A stretch of 26,930 nt of DNA. Origin: a virus. The position numbers and the translations under genes are program-made. This document shows, piece after piece, positions 6,995-14,065 of this stretch. The notes under the pieces were generated by a model, which worked only from the letters and a program-made list of their open reading frames with translations, made no database searches and was not told the origin of the DNA. The DNA lies in IMG/VR virus record IMGVR_UViG_3300028129_000052, positions 1 to 26,930 of that record; one strand, given 5' to 3'. How positions within the stretch are numbered: position 1 is the first letter of the stretch; each line of letters begins with the position of its first letter.

Positions 6995-7050
6995 TTAGTT
7001 GTCTCCACCGTGTGTAGCAAGTAGACTCAATCCCTAATAATCAGGTACTT

Positions 7051-7104
7051 AGAAAAACAACCCCACCCCTCTTCTTGTAGAAAAACAGCACCCCCTCTTC
7101 TGAC
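7051..7104 (+). repeat. Imperfect tandem repeat ahead of terminator
   Basis: Two adjacent units (7051-7078 and 7079-7104) share AGAAAAACA followed by a C-rich run and CCCCTCTTCT. Both contain the same left arm of the terminator stem, so the AGAGGGG arm at 7116-7122 could pair with either copy. Confidence 0.8.
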
Positions 7105-7128
7105 TCGCACTCGGTAGAGGGGTTTTTT
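7092..7128 (+). terminator. Rho-independent terminator of first early operon
   Basis: CCCCTCT (7092-7098) pairs perfectly with AGAGGGG (7116-7122) across a 17-nt loop, followed directly by six T (7123-7128). A second copy of the left arm at 7066-7072 could form a longer alternative hairpin. Confidence 0.88.
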
Positions 7129-7530
7129 GTACTAATTTTATGTATGTCAGCTCCCTGTGAAGACTATATTACGAAACCCCCGATGGGTTACTCTCAAGGG
7201 AAATGGGGGTCTCGAAGTGAGTTCGCTCCTCTCACTCAATATGGAACCACCTTTGGTGATTCATTCTGTGTGTTATAGTTAGTGGTTGTTACTCTCGTGC
7301 TACCTGTGGCTCGTGTTACGCTACCGCTCCACACTTCGCATCCTCTCCGTATTCACTTAGTCTTTAGTGCTACATCATTCACTACTGACTAACCGATTAC
7401 CGTGCTGTGTACTGCGTGCTTGAACTACCGTTCAGCACTCCGTTCCTCTCCGTAATCATCTGATATTATGCGTGTTGTGTGTCTGTGCTACACGTGTGAA
7501 TAGTCTCCGTAACTATTGGGATATTCACCG

Positions 7531-7540
7531 TTCACTATCA
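7531..7540 (+). repeat. TTCACTATCA repeat, copy 1
   Basis: Exact 10-mer inside the structured RNA; its last two bases join the 17-bp helix. Followed by ACACG rather than CG. Confidence 0.8.
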
Positions 7541-7563
7541 ACACGTATGGTATCATCTTTTAT

Positions 7564-7593
7564 AGAGTATTAGCGAGTGTCTAATGCTCTTTT
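7564..7593 (+). terminator. Hairpin with T-tract at 3' end of structured RNA
   Basis: AGAGTATTAG (7564-7573) pairs with CTAATGCTCT (7581-7590), ten pairs with one G-U, over a 7-nt loop, followed by TTTATTA. The T-run is short, so this may be a weak intrinsic terminator or a processing hairpin. Confidence 0.5.
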
Positions 7594-7668
7594 ATTAACT
7601 ACGTGGTATATGTGTATCACTTGCTCTCTAAAAGTCCTTGAGAGTTGACAAATAGGTATTGTATTGTT
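7594..7668 (+). promoter_or_regulatory. Structured leader of 80-residue gene
   Basis: Two short hairpins precede the ATG: GTGGTA/TATCAC (7603-7608/7615-7620) and CTCTC/GAGAG (7624-7628/7640-7644). The last 11 bases including the start codon (GTATTGTTATG, 7661-7671) recur exactly at the start of the gene at 8171, suggesting a shared translation signal. No -7 box was found. Confidence 0.4.
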
Positions 7669-7911
7669 ATGGGTAGATATATTCATAAGATTGATAGGCA
7701 TACTGTTGTTCATACCGCAACTATGCACGTTTCTAACGTTGGTAGCAATAGCACTTACGTTAGTAGGTATGATAAAGGTAGACTTATACATGAAGACATT
7801 ATGTCCTCTAATAGGCTTACTGAATACTTAGCCGACTTTGAACCGTTGGTTGGTATTCAAAACTCTTACATTCCTTCGGTTAAAGACGACGAGTTCGTTG
7901 ACTTGCCTTAG
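7669..7911 (+). CDS. Hypothetical 80-residue protein in RNA island
   Basis: ATG at 7669 opens 80 codons (MGRYIHKIDRHTVVHTATMH...). An in-frame TTG at 7645 would overlap a leader hairpin, so the ATG is preferred. It also shares its start context with the gene at 8171. The N-terminal half is His-rich and the C-terminal half acidic (YIPSVKDDEFVDLP). Codon choice leans to GGT, GTT, TAC and GAC, unlike the A-rich codons of most neighbours and like the gene at 8171. The balanced amino-acid content supports coding. Function unknown. Confidence 0.6.
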   Translation: MGRYIHKIDRHTVVHTATMHVSNVGSNSTYVSRYDKGRLIHEDIMSSNRLTEYLADFEPLVGIQNSYIPSVKDDEFVDLP

Positions 7912-7943
7912 TATGTATTGTCCGAAATGACATTAAACTACCC

Positions 7944-7995
7944 TCGATAAGGATTAGCACCTTATCCTGATGAGTCGCTTCGAAAGGGATGAAAC
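7944..7995 (+). ncRNA. Hammerhead-type self-cleaving ribozyme, degenerate stem III
   Basis: The order fits an open-stem-III (type III) hammerhead. U-C is at 7944-7945, with predicted cleavage after 7945. Stem I is GATAAGG/CCTTATC (7946-7952/7960-7966) with a 7-nt loop. The core CTGATGA is at 7967-7973. Stem II is 7974-7980/7984-7990, six pairs with a G-U closing pair and one G-G mismatch. GAA is at 7991-7993, and A7994 can pair with U7944. Every conserved core base is present. What is missing is stem III: C7995 faces C7943 and the next bases do not pair, so activity is doubtful unless a distant strand supplies stem III. It lies in the intergenic leader of the gene at 8171. Confidence 0.55.
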
Positions 7996-8170
7996 TGAGT
8001 TGTACTTGTAGCGAGTACCACCGATGACGAGATGTTGTCCGTGTCTAAACACTCAGCCATATATCTCTATCTTAGAGTTAGTCAGGATAGCTATTCACTA
8101 TCATTCAGAGTATTATGCCTTGTGTACTTTGTCTTACCTTCCAATTATCCAACAAGGTTTATGTATTGTT
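7996..8170 (+). promoter_or_regulatory. Structured 5' leader of gene at 8171
   Basis: After the ribozyme core come a GTACT/AGTAC hairpin (8002-8006/8014-8018), a CTCT/AGAG hairpin, and GATAG/CTATC (8086-8090/8098-8102), whose right arm is the start of a TTCACTATCA copy. The frame stays open upstream of 8171 but gives a Cys-rich, improbable extension, so this is read as untranslated. Confidence 0.4.
8094..8103 (+). repeat. TTCACTATCA repeat, copy 2
   Basis: Exact 10-mer in the leader of the gene at 8171; its CTATC pairs with GATAG just upstream. Confidence 0.8.
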
Positions 8171-8887
8171 ATGAAAACTAATGTTTCAAACGCTACAAGA
8201 TTTAACTCTAACAAATCAACTTCTTATAAAAGAGGTTCTAAGAGTATCATCAAAGAGATATACTCAGGTAGAGTTATCACTAAGTTACCGAAAGGTAGAG
8301 TTCAAGGAGAGTTCGCTTTCCTTAACTTAGCTCCTATTTCCAAAAGAAATGGTGATGCTAACGAGTTCAAGTATATCGCTACTTACTTCCACATCGGAAG
8401 CGAGTTAGACGAAATGTTGGTTCGTGATTACCTTGCAGGTAAAGATTTAGAGGTGATGTCAGGTAAATCTGCAGCAGCTAAGACTAACAACGAGTTAGTT
8501 CAAGCTCACCTTGAGGCTAAAGAAGCTATGTCTTCTAAGCTGTTCTATTCAGTATTTGACTTGAATATGAAGTCTCAATTCCACAAGGATTTCGATGACC
8601 AATTCTGTGTCTTCACTAAATCTTTTAACGGTAAGACTACTTCTCGTAATCTACTTGACATTCTTAGAATGTTTGACCAAATAGGTCATAATATTTCTGA
8701 AGAACAAATTGACTTATTCTACGACAGAGTAGATGCTTTAAGAGAAAAGGTATCTGACTTCCGTTCAGAAGAAGTAGTTACAGATTTCAACCTACTTGAT
8801 TTAGGTAAGCAAATCGTTGAAGTATTCCGTGGTATCAACGTGAATACGTATGCTAATGACGGTAACGTTAAGTTATTCGCTCTATAG
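8171..8887 (+). CDS. Hypothetical protein with distinct codon use
   Basis: 238 residues from the ATG at 8171 (MKTNVSNATRFNSNKSTSYK). A disordered basic N-terminus is followed by an alpha/beta middle (GEFAFLNLAPISKRNGDANE, YIATYFHIGSELDEMLVRDY) and a helical C-terminal half. Codons are rich in TTC, AAC, TAC, GGT and GTT, in contrast to most genes here, which may mean high expression or separate ancestry. It is framed by RNA elements on both sides: the ribozyme leader before it, and the tRNA-like element six bases after it. No family recognised. A role with the structured RNA is only suggested by position. Confidence 0.75.
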   Translation: MKTNVSNATRFNSNKSTSYKRGSKSIIKEIYSGRVITKLPKGRVQGEFAFLNLAPISKRNGDANEFKYIATYFHIGSELDEMLVRDYLAGKDLEVMSGKSAAAKTNNELVQAHLEAKEAMSSKLFYSVFDLNMKSQFHKDFDDQFCVFTKSFNGKTTSRNLLDILRMFDQIGHNISEEQIDLFYDRVDALREKVSDFRSEEVVTDFNLLDLGKQIVEVFRGINVNTYANDGNVKLFAL

Positions 8888-8892
8888 CATAT

Positions 8893-8946
8893 TAGGAAGT
8901 AATGGTTCACTATCACATAGTGGAGGGTTCGATTCCCTCGCTTCCT
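8893..8946 (+). ncRNA. 54-nt tRNA-like element lacking a D stem
   Basis: A 7-bp acceptor-like stem (8893-8899/8939-8945, ending in a T-G pair) encloses a D-region remnant with GG (8903-8904) but no D stem. Next is a hairpin with a 4-bp stem and 7-nt loop (8907-8921), then a perfect T arm: GAGGG, TTCGATT loop, CCCTC (8922-8938). The short hairpin loop ATCACAT has U at position 33, which would make CAC the anticodon. There is no variable loop, and CCA does not directly follow the discriminator C at 8946 (CCA occurs at 8950-8952). The design, with a GG-bearing D loop without a stem, recalls the tRNA-like domain of tmRNA or D-armless mitochondrial tRNAs. Not a normal tRNA. Confidence 0.6.
8905..8914 (+). 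repeat. TTCACTATCA repeat, copy 3
   Basis: Exact 10-mer forming the left half of the anticodon-like hairpin of the tRNA-like element. Confidence 0.8.
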
Positions 8947-8988
8947 CTAACCATCCGAGAAACTGTGTTCGGAGTACGATAAGTATCA

Positions 8989-9501
8989 ATGGCAGTAACA
9001 ATTATGAGACCAAGAATCTCAAGAAGTGTAGTTCGTGTTAATGTAAAACACGAGAGTACAAAAATGCAAACAGTTAAGAATGAGCTGTATGCAGAAAGAG
9101 CTGAGCTAATCAAGTCGCTTCAGCCAAAATTCCCTTTATGGGCTTGTATTGAACGAGCTTATGCCGAGGACAAGTATGGAGTTGATGCTAATCTTCCTAC
9201 TCACGAGTGGAAAGCATCTCTTAAATTAGCTAAAGCTGAACAAGCAAAAGCTGATAAATTCAAGAACATCAAAGACTTAATCAAAGCTGAAATGTCTAAA
9301 ATAGACAGTTTCTTTAGCGAGACTAAGTTCGATAAGTTCGGAAATAGTTGGTACTCTTACAGGTATCAAAACGAGTTTAGAATAGCATTCTATGACCATA
9401 AAGGTCGTAACAAAGCTGTGTCTAAATTCACAAACTTTGGGGATTATCAATCTTATGTCAAAGAGCAATTAACTGAGTATAAATATACTGAAAAACAATA
9501 A
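8989..9501 (+). CDS. Hypothetical basic helical protein
   Basis: 170 residues, Lys- and Ala-rich. The region from about residue 26 (MQTVKNELYAERAELIKSLQ) looks like a helical domain, followed by a beta segment (SYRYQNEFRIAFYDHKGRNK). The N-terminal 25 residues are Arg/Val-rich and could be an over-extension. A start at the ATG at 9064 would give 145 residues. The first ATG is kept because it lies shortly after the tRNA-like element and no stop intervenes. Function unknown. Confidence 0.68.
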   Translation: MAVTIMRPRISRSVVRVNVKHESTKMQTVKNELYAERAELIKSLQPKFPLWACIERAYAEDKYGVDANLPTHEWKASLKLAKAEQAKADKFKNIKDLIKAEMSKIDSFFSETKFDKFGNSWYSYRYQNEFRIAFYDHKGRNKAVSKFTNFGDYQSYVKEQLTEYKYTEKQ

Positions 9502-9735: not shown

Positions 9736-9757
9736 AAGAATATTTGACAAAATTAAG

Positions 9758-9806
9758 TATATTTGTATTCACTATCACGAGCAAAGGCTGAAGCCAAGCG
9801 AGTGAA
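9758..9806 (+). promoter_or_regulatory. -7 box and folded 5' leader of gene at 9820
   Basis: TATATTTG (9758-9765) matches the Bacteroidetes -7 consensus, although the nearest TTTG is only 11 bases upstream, too close for a -33 element. Transcription should start near 9770, so the RNA would open with the TTCACTATCACG motif. TTCACT (9768-9773) pairs with AGTGAA (9801-9806), and within it GGC/GCC closes a TGAA tetraloop (9786-9795). The leader hairpin ends 13 bases before the ATG. Confidence 0.5.
9768..9779 (+). repeat. TTCACTATCACG repeat, copy 4
   Basis: 12-base form, three bases after a -7 box; TTCACT pairs with AGTGAA at 9801-9806. Confidence 0.8.
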
Positions 9807-10751: not shown

Positions 10752-11279
10752 ATGAGTGCATCAAGTAGAAATTATTTCAGACAAATGGAAGAAGAAATAG
10801 AAAATGGAGGTATGTCTTTAGCACAAGAAATGCAAGAGAGTAAAATGCATGCAGAAAGAATGGATGAGTTAAAGGAAAGAACTCAAAAAGAGTTTGAAGA
10901 ATGTGATTTAGTATTCACATACGGTACTCTAATGAGAGGATACGGTAACAACAGGCTATTAGAAGGAGCTTTCTTCAAAGGAGAAGCTGAAACAGTAGAA
11001 AAGTATATGCTAACAGCAAGTGGAATACCATTCGTGCATCCAAAACACAACAAAGTAGAAATCAAAGGAGAAGTATGGGAAGTGAGAACTCTAAGACAGT
11101 TCATACACTTAGACGCTCTTGAATCTCACCCTAATTGGTACAAAAGAGAAATCATAGAAGTTAGAGTCAAGAATAAAATTAAAAAAGCTTGGATTTATTT
11201 CAATGAAGACTCAGTAGGTACAGAAATACCAAGTGGAGATTACAGAGATTACAAACCAACATACACAAACTTTGATTAA
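10752..11279 (+). CDS. Gamma-glutamylcyclotransferase-like (AIG2/GGCT) protein
   Basis: 175 residues. A helical 50-residue extension precedes a GGCT fold. The nucleophile-binding loop YGTLMRGYGNN starts at about residue 57, the central strands include IKGEVWEV, and the likely catalytic Glu is at about 124 in LDALESHPNWYKRE, followed by a final strand KKAWIYF. Family knowledge: these enzymes cyclise gamma-glutamyl amines to release 5-oxoproline. In phage and bacterial neighbourhoods they occur beside amidoligases and class II glutamine amidotransferases, both of which are present downstream (12722 and 14457). The substrate is probably a gamma-glutamyl amide made or removed by that set, an inference. 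The N-terminal helix is unusual for the family. Confidence 0.8.
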   Translation: MSASSRNYFRQMEEEIENGGMSLAQEMQESKMHAERMDELKERTQKEFEECDLVFTYGTLMRGYGNNRLLEGAFFKGEAETVEKYMLTASGIPFVHPKHNKVEIKGEVWEVRTLRQFIHLDALESHPNWYKREIIEVRVKNKIKKAWIYFNEDSVGTEIPSGDYRDYKPTYTNFD

Positions 11280-12721: not shown

Positions 12722-14065
12722 ATGCCAAGAATACAACGAGAATGTTGCACTAACTGTGGTGGTACAGTACAAGTCGAATTAATGATAACAAATGCACACA
12801 ATAGTAACAGGGTATGTCAACCCTGTGCTACTGTGCTGCTATTTGAATCAGCATTTGACCGTGAATGGTATCCTCGAACAATGAGGGTAAGAACAGATGA
12901 AGGATTCATGACAAGAGAGCAGAGAGATAATCTTAGTAGCTACTCATCATGTGTTATATGTGAAACAAGAGTTCATCAAGATAGATTAAGAAACGTAATG
13001 TTAAATGATGAGATACAACAAGCTTGTGGGTATTGCTCAGATAATTTAGCAACCTGTGATTCATGTTCAATTCCTCTTTATGAAGATTCTGAAAACATTG
13101 TTCATATAGGAGCATACACAAACGAAATAAGATGTAGAGAGTGTGCAGAGACAGACGAAGAACTGTATATGTGCGAAGAAGCAGAATGTGCTACGTATGT
13201 CAATCAAGAAATAGGAGAAACAGAAGATGGAGAGTATTTCTGTAGAAACCATGTTCCTCAATTAGAACCAATAAGAATATGGAACTACACATACACTCCT
13301 AATCTTAACTTCACATCAAACGCTGTAGATAACACAAGAGGAAAGTATTTCAACAGAGAGTTACCTTTTTACGGTATAGAAATAGAAGTTGATACTCCTG
13401 ACGGTATGCAACAAACAGCAGACAAATGCAGATTGATGGCTGCAGAAGACATATACTTAAAAAGAGATGCAAGTATAGACGGATTCGAAATTGTTACACA
13501 TCCTTCAACGTTCAGAGCACAAAAAGATTTGCCTTGGACTGATAGATTAAAGGAGCTAAAAAAGCATGGAGCAAGAGGGTATAACTCAGGTAAATGTGGA
13601 ATACATATACACGTTACAAAAGAAGCTTACAGCCCTATAGTGTGGTGGAAAATATTAATGTTTTCGTACAGATGTTCTTCTCAATGGAAAATGTTTGCAA
13701 GAAGAAATGGAAACTACAGATATTGTCCATACAGTTCTCCAACTCAGTACGAAAACTACAGCAGAAAAAAGACAATGTATCCTGAAGTGGAAGATAGGTA
13801 CAAGCATATAAACGTAACAGAACATACTGTAGAGTTTAGAATGTTTCGTTCAACTACTGACCATGATAGATTTTGGGCTACGTTAGAGTTTGTTTACTCT
13901 GCTATAGCATTCTGCGAGCAGCATGGATATTCATTCATGGTAAACAATAGTGCTACGGTAATATGGGATGAGTTTACTAAGTTCATTAAGAACCAAAACG
14001 AATGTCATACACTAAGAAAACACTTAAAGAAAAGAAACCTTTCAAGGGTAGGTATTAATAACTAA
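12722..14065 (+). CDS. Zinc-finger amidoligase (COOH-NH2 ligase, glutamine-synthetase-like)
   Basis: 447 residues in two parts. Residues 1-180 hold a dense series of CxxC pairs (CCTNCGG, CQPC, CVIC, CGYC, CDSC, CREC and CEEAEC, then a CRNH pair), likely treble-clef or RING-like zinc fingers for binding a protein or RNA target. From about 215, FYGIEIEVDTPDG gives the first strand with its metal-binding acids, GFEIVTHPSTF lies near 254, CGIHIHVTKEAY near 291, and TVEFRMFRSTTDHDRF near 370; these match the phage amidoligase family related to glutamine synthetase. Known family role: ATP-dependent joining of an amine to a carboxylate. Neighbours of GGCT and glutamine amidotransferase type support a peptide or amide modification set. 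The substrate is not known. Confidence 0.82.
   Translation: MPRIQRECCTNCGGTVQVELMITNAHNSNRVCQPCATVLLFESAFDREWYPRTMRVRTDEGFMTREQRDNLSSYSSCVICETRVHQDRLRNVMLNDEIQQACGYCSDNLATCDSCSIPLYEDSENIVHIGAYTNEIRCRECAETDEELYMCEEAECATYVNQEIGETEDGEYFCRNHVPQLEPIRIWNYTYTPNLNFTSNAVDNTRGKYFNRELPFYGIEIEVDTPDGMQQTADKCRLMAAEDIYLKRDASIDGFEIVTHPSTFRAQKDLPWTDRLKELKKHGARGYNSGKCGIHIHVTKEAYSPIVWWKILMFSYRCSSQWKMFARRNGNYRYCPYSSPTQYENYSRKKTMYPEVEDRYKHINVTEHTVEFRMFRSTTDHDRFWATLEFVYSAIAFCEQHGYSFMVNNSATVIWDEFTKFIKNQNECHTLRKHLKKRNLSRVGINN

Follow-up and report, generated by a model that had tools for sequence, protein, structure and literature searches.

The tRNA-like domain of tmRNA (RF00023) has a stemless D loop, a T arm, and a 7-bp acceptor, as in the phage element described here, and MALAT1 mascRNA is another small tRNA-like fold. 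mascRNA is matured by the tRNA machinery, which gives an RNA 3' end (PMC12941219). In plant mitochondrial t-elements and in the mitochondrial tRNA punctuation model, tRNA-like sequences with no encoded CCA lie at gene ends, and cuts by RNase P and RNase Z define the ends of the mRNAs (PMC11658184, PMC8003010). RNase P binds the stacked T stem and acceptor and, like a ruler, measures off a fixed length that begins at the elbow (PMC4919913); a 12-bp acceptor-plus-T duplex is an efficient substrate of the Escherichia coli enzyme (PMC11221534); and RCCA can be a requirement for cleavage by the bacterial enzyme (PMC12710915). RNase P also cuts a number of phage RNAs and mRNAs, and the RNAs cut by the host enzyme include the C4 antisense RNA of P1/P7, bacteriophage M3 RNA, and T4 gene 32 mRNA (PMC11143913). 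Cluster K mycobacteriophages carry SAS/ESAS repeats upstream of genes, ESAS with inverted repeats, to which no function is assigned (PMC3203893).

The window analyzed here is the whole of a 26,930-base virus record (IMG/VR IMGVR_UViG_3300028129_000052). It encodes TerL and portal genes, and its TerL is closest to those of crAss-like phages of human feces, with 26 to 29% identity among the matches listed; other TerL matches include Flavobacterium and Bacteroides phages. A tRNA-like element lies between two genes on the + strand, and its parts and surroundings are as follows.

8171 to 8887, + strand: upstream gene, with its stop codon TAG 6 nt 5' of the element and a longest ORF start at 8024 (sequence, ORF list).
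8894 to 8946, + strand: three-arm tRNA-like element, D-stemless, 53 nt, with a 12-bp acceptor-plus-T stack (sequence, fold, shuffle control, class comparison).
8894 to 8900, + strand: 5' strand AGGAAGT of the acceptor-like stem, whose partner is GCTTCCT at 8940 to 8946 (sequence, fold).
8901 to 8907, + strand: D-like loop AATGGTT without a D stem, GG at 8904 and 8905 (sequence).
8908 to 8922, + strand: third arm, a 6-bp hairpin CACTAT-CAC-ATAGTG (fold, equivalent position in other three-arm members).
8923 to 8939, + strand: T arm GAGGG-TTCGATT-CCCTC with a 5-bp stem (sequence, fold, T-arm-only match to covariance model R1 at 17.9 bits).
8954 to 8973, + strand: second small hairpin 3' of the element, 8954 to 8959 pairing with 8968 to 8973 (predicted fold).
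8989 to 9501, + strand: downstream gene, with its ATG 42 nt 3' of the element (sequence, ORF list).

The initial annotation had described a D-stemless tRNA-like RNA that keeps the GG of the tertiary contact, and both the fold and the loop AATGGTT, which is the most frequent D-like loop in the class described below, agree with this. The perfect T arm and the seven-pair acceptor-like stem that it reported are likewise present in the predicted fold, with one acceptor pair being T-G. The fold that it placed at 8893 to 8946 stands, but not the length of 54 nt, because base 8893 is unpaired and the element is therefore 53 nt. The 54-nt version has a fold of -19.4 kcal/mol and a z of -3.2 against shuffles, and a 60-nt version has a z of -3.5, with 0 of 200 shuffles equally stable. 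When the window's 6 T-loop motif sites were kept and the remainder was shuffled 1,500 times, comparable structural matches arose 6 times (0.004 per window), none of them with a third hairpin, while the real window has 1, with the hairpin. The predicted fold of the window element is confirmed, and chance is a poor explanation for it. The 40 nt 3' of the element fold at -7.5 kcal/mol. Nothing supports gene status for a 63-aa mechanical ORF (8850 to 9041) that crosses the element in another frame.

ARAGORN finds 0 tRNAs and 0 tmRNAs in the window, and an Rfam 15 scan of the window, tmRNA RF00023 included, gives 0 matches at gathering score, by which membership in a known Rfam family was rejected. 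The initial annotation had placed the element at some distance from phage tRNAs, and we agree that it is not a tRNA gene: there is no D stem, the third-arm loop is 3 nt in the predicted fold compared with the 7-nt anticodon loop of a tRNA, and ARAGORN reports none. Its comparison with a tmRNA domain fares less well, since pair 3 is G-C and not the alanine-identity G3-U70, there is no messenger domain, and neither ARAGORN nor Rfam at gathering score detects a tmRNA. A permissive Rfam scan of five loci (L064, L080, L091, L027, and the window's own locus, L001) gives two ordinary tRNAs at gathering score; the remaining matches, among them two short ones to the 3' end of tmRNA at 13 to 16 bits, do not reach that score.

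The anticodon-like hairpin region overlaps a repeat, as had been noted before. TTCACTATCA has six exact copies in the window, all + (7531, 8094, 8906, 9768, 15107, and 26002), and the copy at 8906 overlaps the D-like loop and third arm of the element. It is the most frequent 10-mer in the window, and at least two of its copies are within predicted reading frames. Third-order Markov simulations gave some 10-mer with at least 6 copies in 4 of 100 runs; the examples displayed are A-rich, and TTCACTATCA is unusual for the window because it is not. The idea that the 10-mer is an integral part of the element is not supported: the eight other three-arm elements compared do not have it, and judged by these sequences the embedded 10-mer is no feature of the class. 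Immediately 5' of one TTCACTATCA copy, at window ~9740 to 9765, is TTG...TATATTTG, which we take to resemble a Bacteroidota-type promoter.

We scanned IMG/VR with the pattern AATGGTT, 8 to 24 bases, GGTTCGATTCC, which returned at least 119 stretches. The pattern sites concentrate at gaps of 8 to 9, and the flanks of these sites pair, which gives 12 bp for acceptor plus T, in most cases divided as 7+5, 6+6, or 5+7. The usual insertion is 10 to 11 nt with GG and no anticodon-like arm; a third arm is absent from most class elements and present in a minority that includes the window copy. A structural scanner applied to 121 records (the 119 stretches, the window, and L001) finds 112 matches, compared with 0.4 per shuffled pass in which the T-loop sites were kept. 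Among the 119 stretches listed, there are 110 matches representing 96 distinct elements, 47 that fit the search motif and 49 that do not. Sixty of these stretches have at least one element and 27 have at least two, and in 26 of the 27 all are on a single strand; the odd opposite-strand match (L041) is, by eye, an ordinary tRNA in appearance. When only the motifs were considered and pairing was ignored, 42 of 61 distinct gap-8/9 sites had pairing of at least 11 of 12, 8 had 9 to less than 11, and 11 had less. In place of NCCA, most tails read N-C-[A/U]-A (C74 in 96 of 121, C75 in 7 of 121), and immediately 5' of the stack the usual base is A (72 of 121).

A longer-gap scan (gap 12 to 17) returned 26 stretches in all of IMG/VR, and in the stretches newly fetched by both longer-gap scans, 93 of 135 sites are within ARAGORN tRNAs, and a few are further three-arm forms (e.g., L288). 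The first 50 kb of Giles, TM4, Bongo, and crAss001 contain no scanner match. The first 50 kb of phi38:1 contain two, and because both are within annotated ordinary tRNAs, the scanner has an ordinary-tRNA false-positive mode. ARAGORN, for its part, has tRNA-Phe predictions overlapping two-arm elements at L064:4138-4209(+) and at L032:11638-11709(-), which are likely to be a source of false phage tRNA annotation.

For the alignment, 44 two-arm elements were carried on from 57 rows, rows with a shifted insertion point being dropped. All 528 of 528 cells are paired, double changes are found in 11 of the 12 pairs, and the covariation score of these 44 elements, which were selected by pairing, is 1.092, compared with 0.194 for shuffled alignments and at most 0.222 for slid controls. 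Because the rows were chosen by pairing, the scanner shuffle and the motif-only count are the fairer tests. Stem letters vary freely, and the conserved letters are those of the elbow-forming loops. Covariance model R1, which represents the two-arm form only, was searched against 49 virus records at an E of 0.01 and has matches in 46, with up to 11 per record (11 in Indlulamithi [G036], 11 in Cuke [G011], 8 in G012, and 7 in G041). R1 copies of a record share one strand; the exception is G024, where a weak match covers the T arm only. No R1 match was obtained in three records (G021, G047, and G048), those of L051, L020, and L053, which have three-arm or related forms, the elements of L051 and L020 being of the three-arm type. 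The existence of the class is strongly supported. No description of it was found in the open-access literature searched, and Rfam 15 gives no match at gathering score in the window scan. Organelles are known to punctuate mRNA with tRNA-like sequences, and a phage class of such stripped-down forms appears to be new.

The elements typically lie between genes. We compared 93 distinct two-arm elements with 515 controls, which are T-loop motifs without the structure. A stop codon is within -8 to +25 nt of 65/93 elements, compared with 65/515 controls; a start codon is within 100 nt of 66/93, compared with 147/515; and both are found for 49/93, compared with 32/515. Only 2/93 elements are inside a same-strand ORF of at least 100 aa, compared with 97/515 controls, while for opposite-strand ORFs (16/93 and 99/515) there is no difference. 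The median placement is 9 nt after the stop and 43 nt before the start. For 36% of 120 elements, the predicted fold of the 40 nt on the 3' side ranks in the top 5% relative to shuffles of that stretch, compared with 13% for upstream controls.

Two of the loci belong to cultured phages, L091 being Mycobacterium phage Indlulamithi and L036 being Cuke, which has Fowlmouth and MrMiyagi as relatives. Indlulamithi has 13 elements, all +, at a relaxed score of 9.5, and they are intergenic by annotation except for one that overlaps an annotated start by 25 nt. The distance from stop to element is 5 to 17 nt for 12 of these 13 and 135 nt for the remaining one, and the elements are mostly 35 to 46 nt 5' of the next start. 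At a score of 9, Cuke has 13 elements, Fowlmouth 12, and MrMiyagi 12, again all +, with two matches each in Cuke and Fowlmouth being inside annotated genes. Among the gaps examined in these three phages, all of 55 nt or longer, 9/14, 8/15, and 10/15, respectively, hold an element, which is 27 of the 44, and several of the remaining gaps have near-miss forms by eye. In gap after gap, the stop codon is followed by the tRNA-like fold, then a small hairpin, a ribosome-binding site of the GAGGATGG type, and the ATG. Megablast aligned the Cuke query with Indlulamithi in a single place, 76 bases that contain an element and have no annotated gene beneath. Megablast searches for cultured relatives of L064, L104, L059, L027, L043, and L126 found none.

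The three-arm layout, in which the acceptor is followed by the GG loop, the hairpin, and the T arm, is found in Cuke, Fowlmouth, Indlulamithi, L020, L051, and L288. The predicted folds are mostly alike, with L288 and Indlulamithi 38972 deviating in the GG-loop region, and mycobacteriophage arrays mix three-arm and two-arm forms. The third arm forms 8/8 pairs in Cuke and again in Fowlmouth, and it covaries between the two: by eye, two pairs differ at both positions and one differs at a single position. In GTDB genomes, the motif occurs in 56 stretches and structural matches in 16, in contigs titled Dysgonomonas, Lachnospiraceae, Brachyspira, Corynebacterium, Amycolatopsis, and others, titles that for MAGs may reflect mis-binning. 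The Dysgonomonas contig has a Mu-like region by PHROG matches. An R1 search of the L126 genome, scoring at most 150 candidates per genome, gave no match, though the scanner has a match there. In L165, a Lachnospiraceae MAG contig of 6,997 bases, nine elements are on one strand between short genes, and the seven L165 proteins tested have no PHROG match. As a separate observation, tmRNA tRNA-like domains without a messenger domain are found at L102:7355-7426(+), L009:1249-1330(-), and L114:3665-3746(-). Rfam tmRNA matches them end to end over 72 to 82 nt at 66.7, 61.7, and 61.7 bits, respectively (gathering score, 47); by eye they have G3-U70, and ARAGORN finds none of them. The L102 domain is between a stop and a start codon, a slot like that of the tRNA-like elements.

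The window element has the 12-bp acceptor-plus-T stack of the class (7+5 pairs) and a T loop, TTCGATT, of the form TTCRANN; the GG-bearing D-like loop at 8901 to 8907 opens the 5'-side insertion; and the element is on the same strand as the flanking genes, 6 nt after the stop and 42 nt before the start. Its tail, CTAA, lacks C74, a frequent but nondefining class trait (96/121). A full-length R1 match was not obtained in the window, which matches in the T arm only (17.9 bits, E of 0.0135). The 26,930-base fragment has a single copy, as do many other records. Based on this comparison, it looks like a three-arm copy of a phage intergenic mini-tRNA-like class.

A TerL search gave seven relatives of the window, but their contigs do not reach the element locus: none of them resembles the window in sequence beyond ~7,200, and neither the motif GGTTCRAYTCC nor the window's DnaB and upstream-gene proteins are found in these contigs, which do not span the locus. 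Window ~7000 to 8170 is a long ORF-poor stretch, perhaps an assembly break or a repeat; the two closest relatives are similar to the window up to about 7,021 and 7,179, where their contigs end. A DnaB search gave one fragment with an identical protein, and searches with the upstream-gene protein and with the amidoligase-like gene gave none. The amidoligase-like gene (12722 to 14065) and a gamma-glutamyl cyclotransferase-like gene (10752 to 11279) are near each other in the window.

Compared with known systems, the phage elements resemble t-elements and tRNA punctuation in being tRNA-like sequences at gene ends with no encoded CCA, and they would share cleavage as well. However, t-elements are organellar and homologous to whole tRNAs, while the phage elements have no D stem, mostly no anticodon-like arm, and are arrayed with different stems. 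MALAT1 mascRNA is mammalian and from a single locus, unlike the phage class. Minihelix RNase P substrates (pATSer type, MD1) have the 12-bp acceptor-plus-T stack in common with the phage elements (PMC11221534), but these are laboratory constructs; the phage elements have in addition a D-like GG loop and in most cases an NC[A/U]A end. The C4, M3, and T4 gene 32 substrates are named as single RNAs and not as a repeated intergenic family in the relevant part of that account (PMC11143913). Identity with cluster K SAS/ESAS was rejected, since the repeat architecture in the published description consulted is different (ESAS has 17-bp inverted repeats, mostly with a 4- to 13-bp spacer [PMC3203893]), and TM4 is among the phages without a scanner match in the first 50 kb.

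We think it probable that the elements are minimal RNase P signals, perhaps RNase Z signals as well, that punctuate polycistronic phage mRNA. Each element lies, in the mRNA sense, after the stop codon of one gene and ahead of the region where ribosomes bind for the next, with its GG-bearing D-like loop and TTCGATT-type T loop presenting a predicted tRNA elbow on the 12-bp stack. Host RNase P would clamp the elbow, measure 12 bp, and cut at the 5' end of the stack, and RNase Z or another nuclease would probably cut 3' of it. A polycistronic transcript would thereby be converted into shorter mRNAs, with new ends just after the stop and, for the next mRNA, just before the small 5' hairpin and ribosome-binding site; the third arm would be an optional elaboration. 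The fold, its covariation, the placement between genes, the use of one strand, and the recurrence are shown by the sequences; this cleavage, the enzymes involved, and the effect on expression are inferred. The conserved parts of the elements, the elbow loops and the fixed 12-bp stack, are what tRNA 5' processing requires. The suggestion in the initial annotation of a processing signal for the preceding mRNA fits both the position and the class, if such cleavage occurs. Several findings count against this reading: the tail is mostly not NCCA, the base before the stack is mostly A, the window has CTAA and a single copy in 27 kb, and no orthologue of that copy was seen, the contigs of the seven TerL relatives lacking the motif GGTTCRAYTCC but also missing the locus. 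Bacterial RNase P leaders usually have U before the cleavage stack, where the class mostly has A. Since the tail lacks CCA and RCCA can matter, the case for RNase P is weakened, while the N-C-[A/U]-A tail with C75 nearly absent fits an RNase Z-permissive, nonchargeable end.

One alternative, which we consider unlikely but worth weighing, is that the elements protect mRNA ends that RNase P does not make. A nuclease would cut downstream, the tRNA-like fold, perhaps CCA-tailed, would block 3' exonucleases on the upstream mRNA, and the small hairpin would guard the 5' end of the next. The stop codon directly 5' of the fold and the hairpin-prone stretch directly 3' of it are consistent with this, as is the absence from the tail of CCA, the primary RNase Z antideterminant (PMC4919913). 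However, a plain hairpin would be enough to block an exonuclease, and a 12-bp stack with an elbow would not be needed.

It is still less probable that the elements act in translation, either as an insulator that separates terminating and initiating ribosomes or as the binding site of a tRNA-binding factor that tunes initiation. The typical site between stop and ribosome-binding region would suit such a role, but what is conserved is the elbow-forming loops, with stem sequences that vary freely, and we know of no such factor. We give equally little weight to the idea that the window copy itself lies outside the class, having arisen as a fold by chance or through the decay of a tRNA. Its single copy, the lack of orthologues seen (the relatives' contigs miss the locus), the missing C74, and the T-arm-only R1 match would favor this; against it are the low rate of matches in shuffled windows, none with the hairpin, and a D-like loop and T loop identical to those of the class on a 12-bp stack, in a placement (6/42 nt) close to the class medians (9/43). 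A separate RNA acting as a decoy for host nucleases that target tRNAs, as the initial annotation had considered, or for defense systems would draw on tRNA mimicry and on the dosage that arrays would supply, but it is highly improbable, because most members have no anticodon-like arm and the arrayed copies follow gene boundaries and not an RNA gene cluster.

Returning to mRNA punctuation by RNase P, we consider the chances to be about even that stripped-down tRNA/tmRNA folds serve as a general punctuation code, adopted independently by phages across several bacterial phyla, in which RNase P, and possibly RNase Z, divides operons gene by gene as a counterpart of mitochondrial tRNA punctuation. 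If so, a core host ribozyme would shape the operons of many phages, and many phage intergenic gaps would hold functional RNA that is lacking in Rfam 15 and missed or misread by tRNA finders. The elements would also make it possible to compare naturally occurring minimal substrates of RNase P across several phyla, and the cultured Mycobacterium smegmatis phages would allow a direct test.
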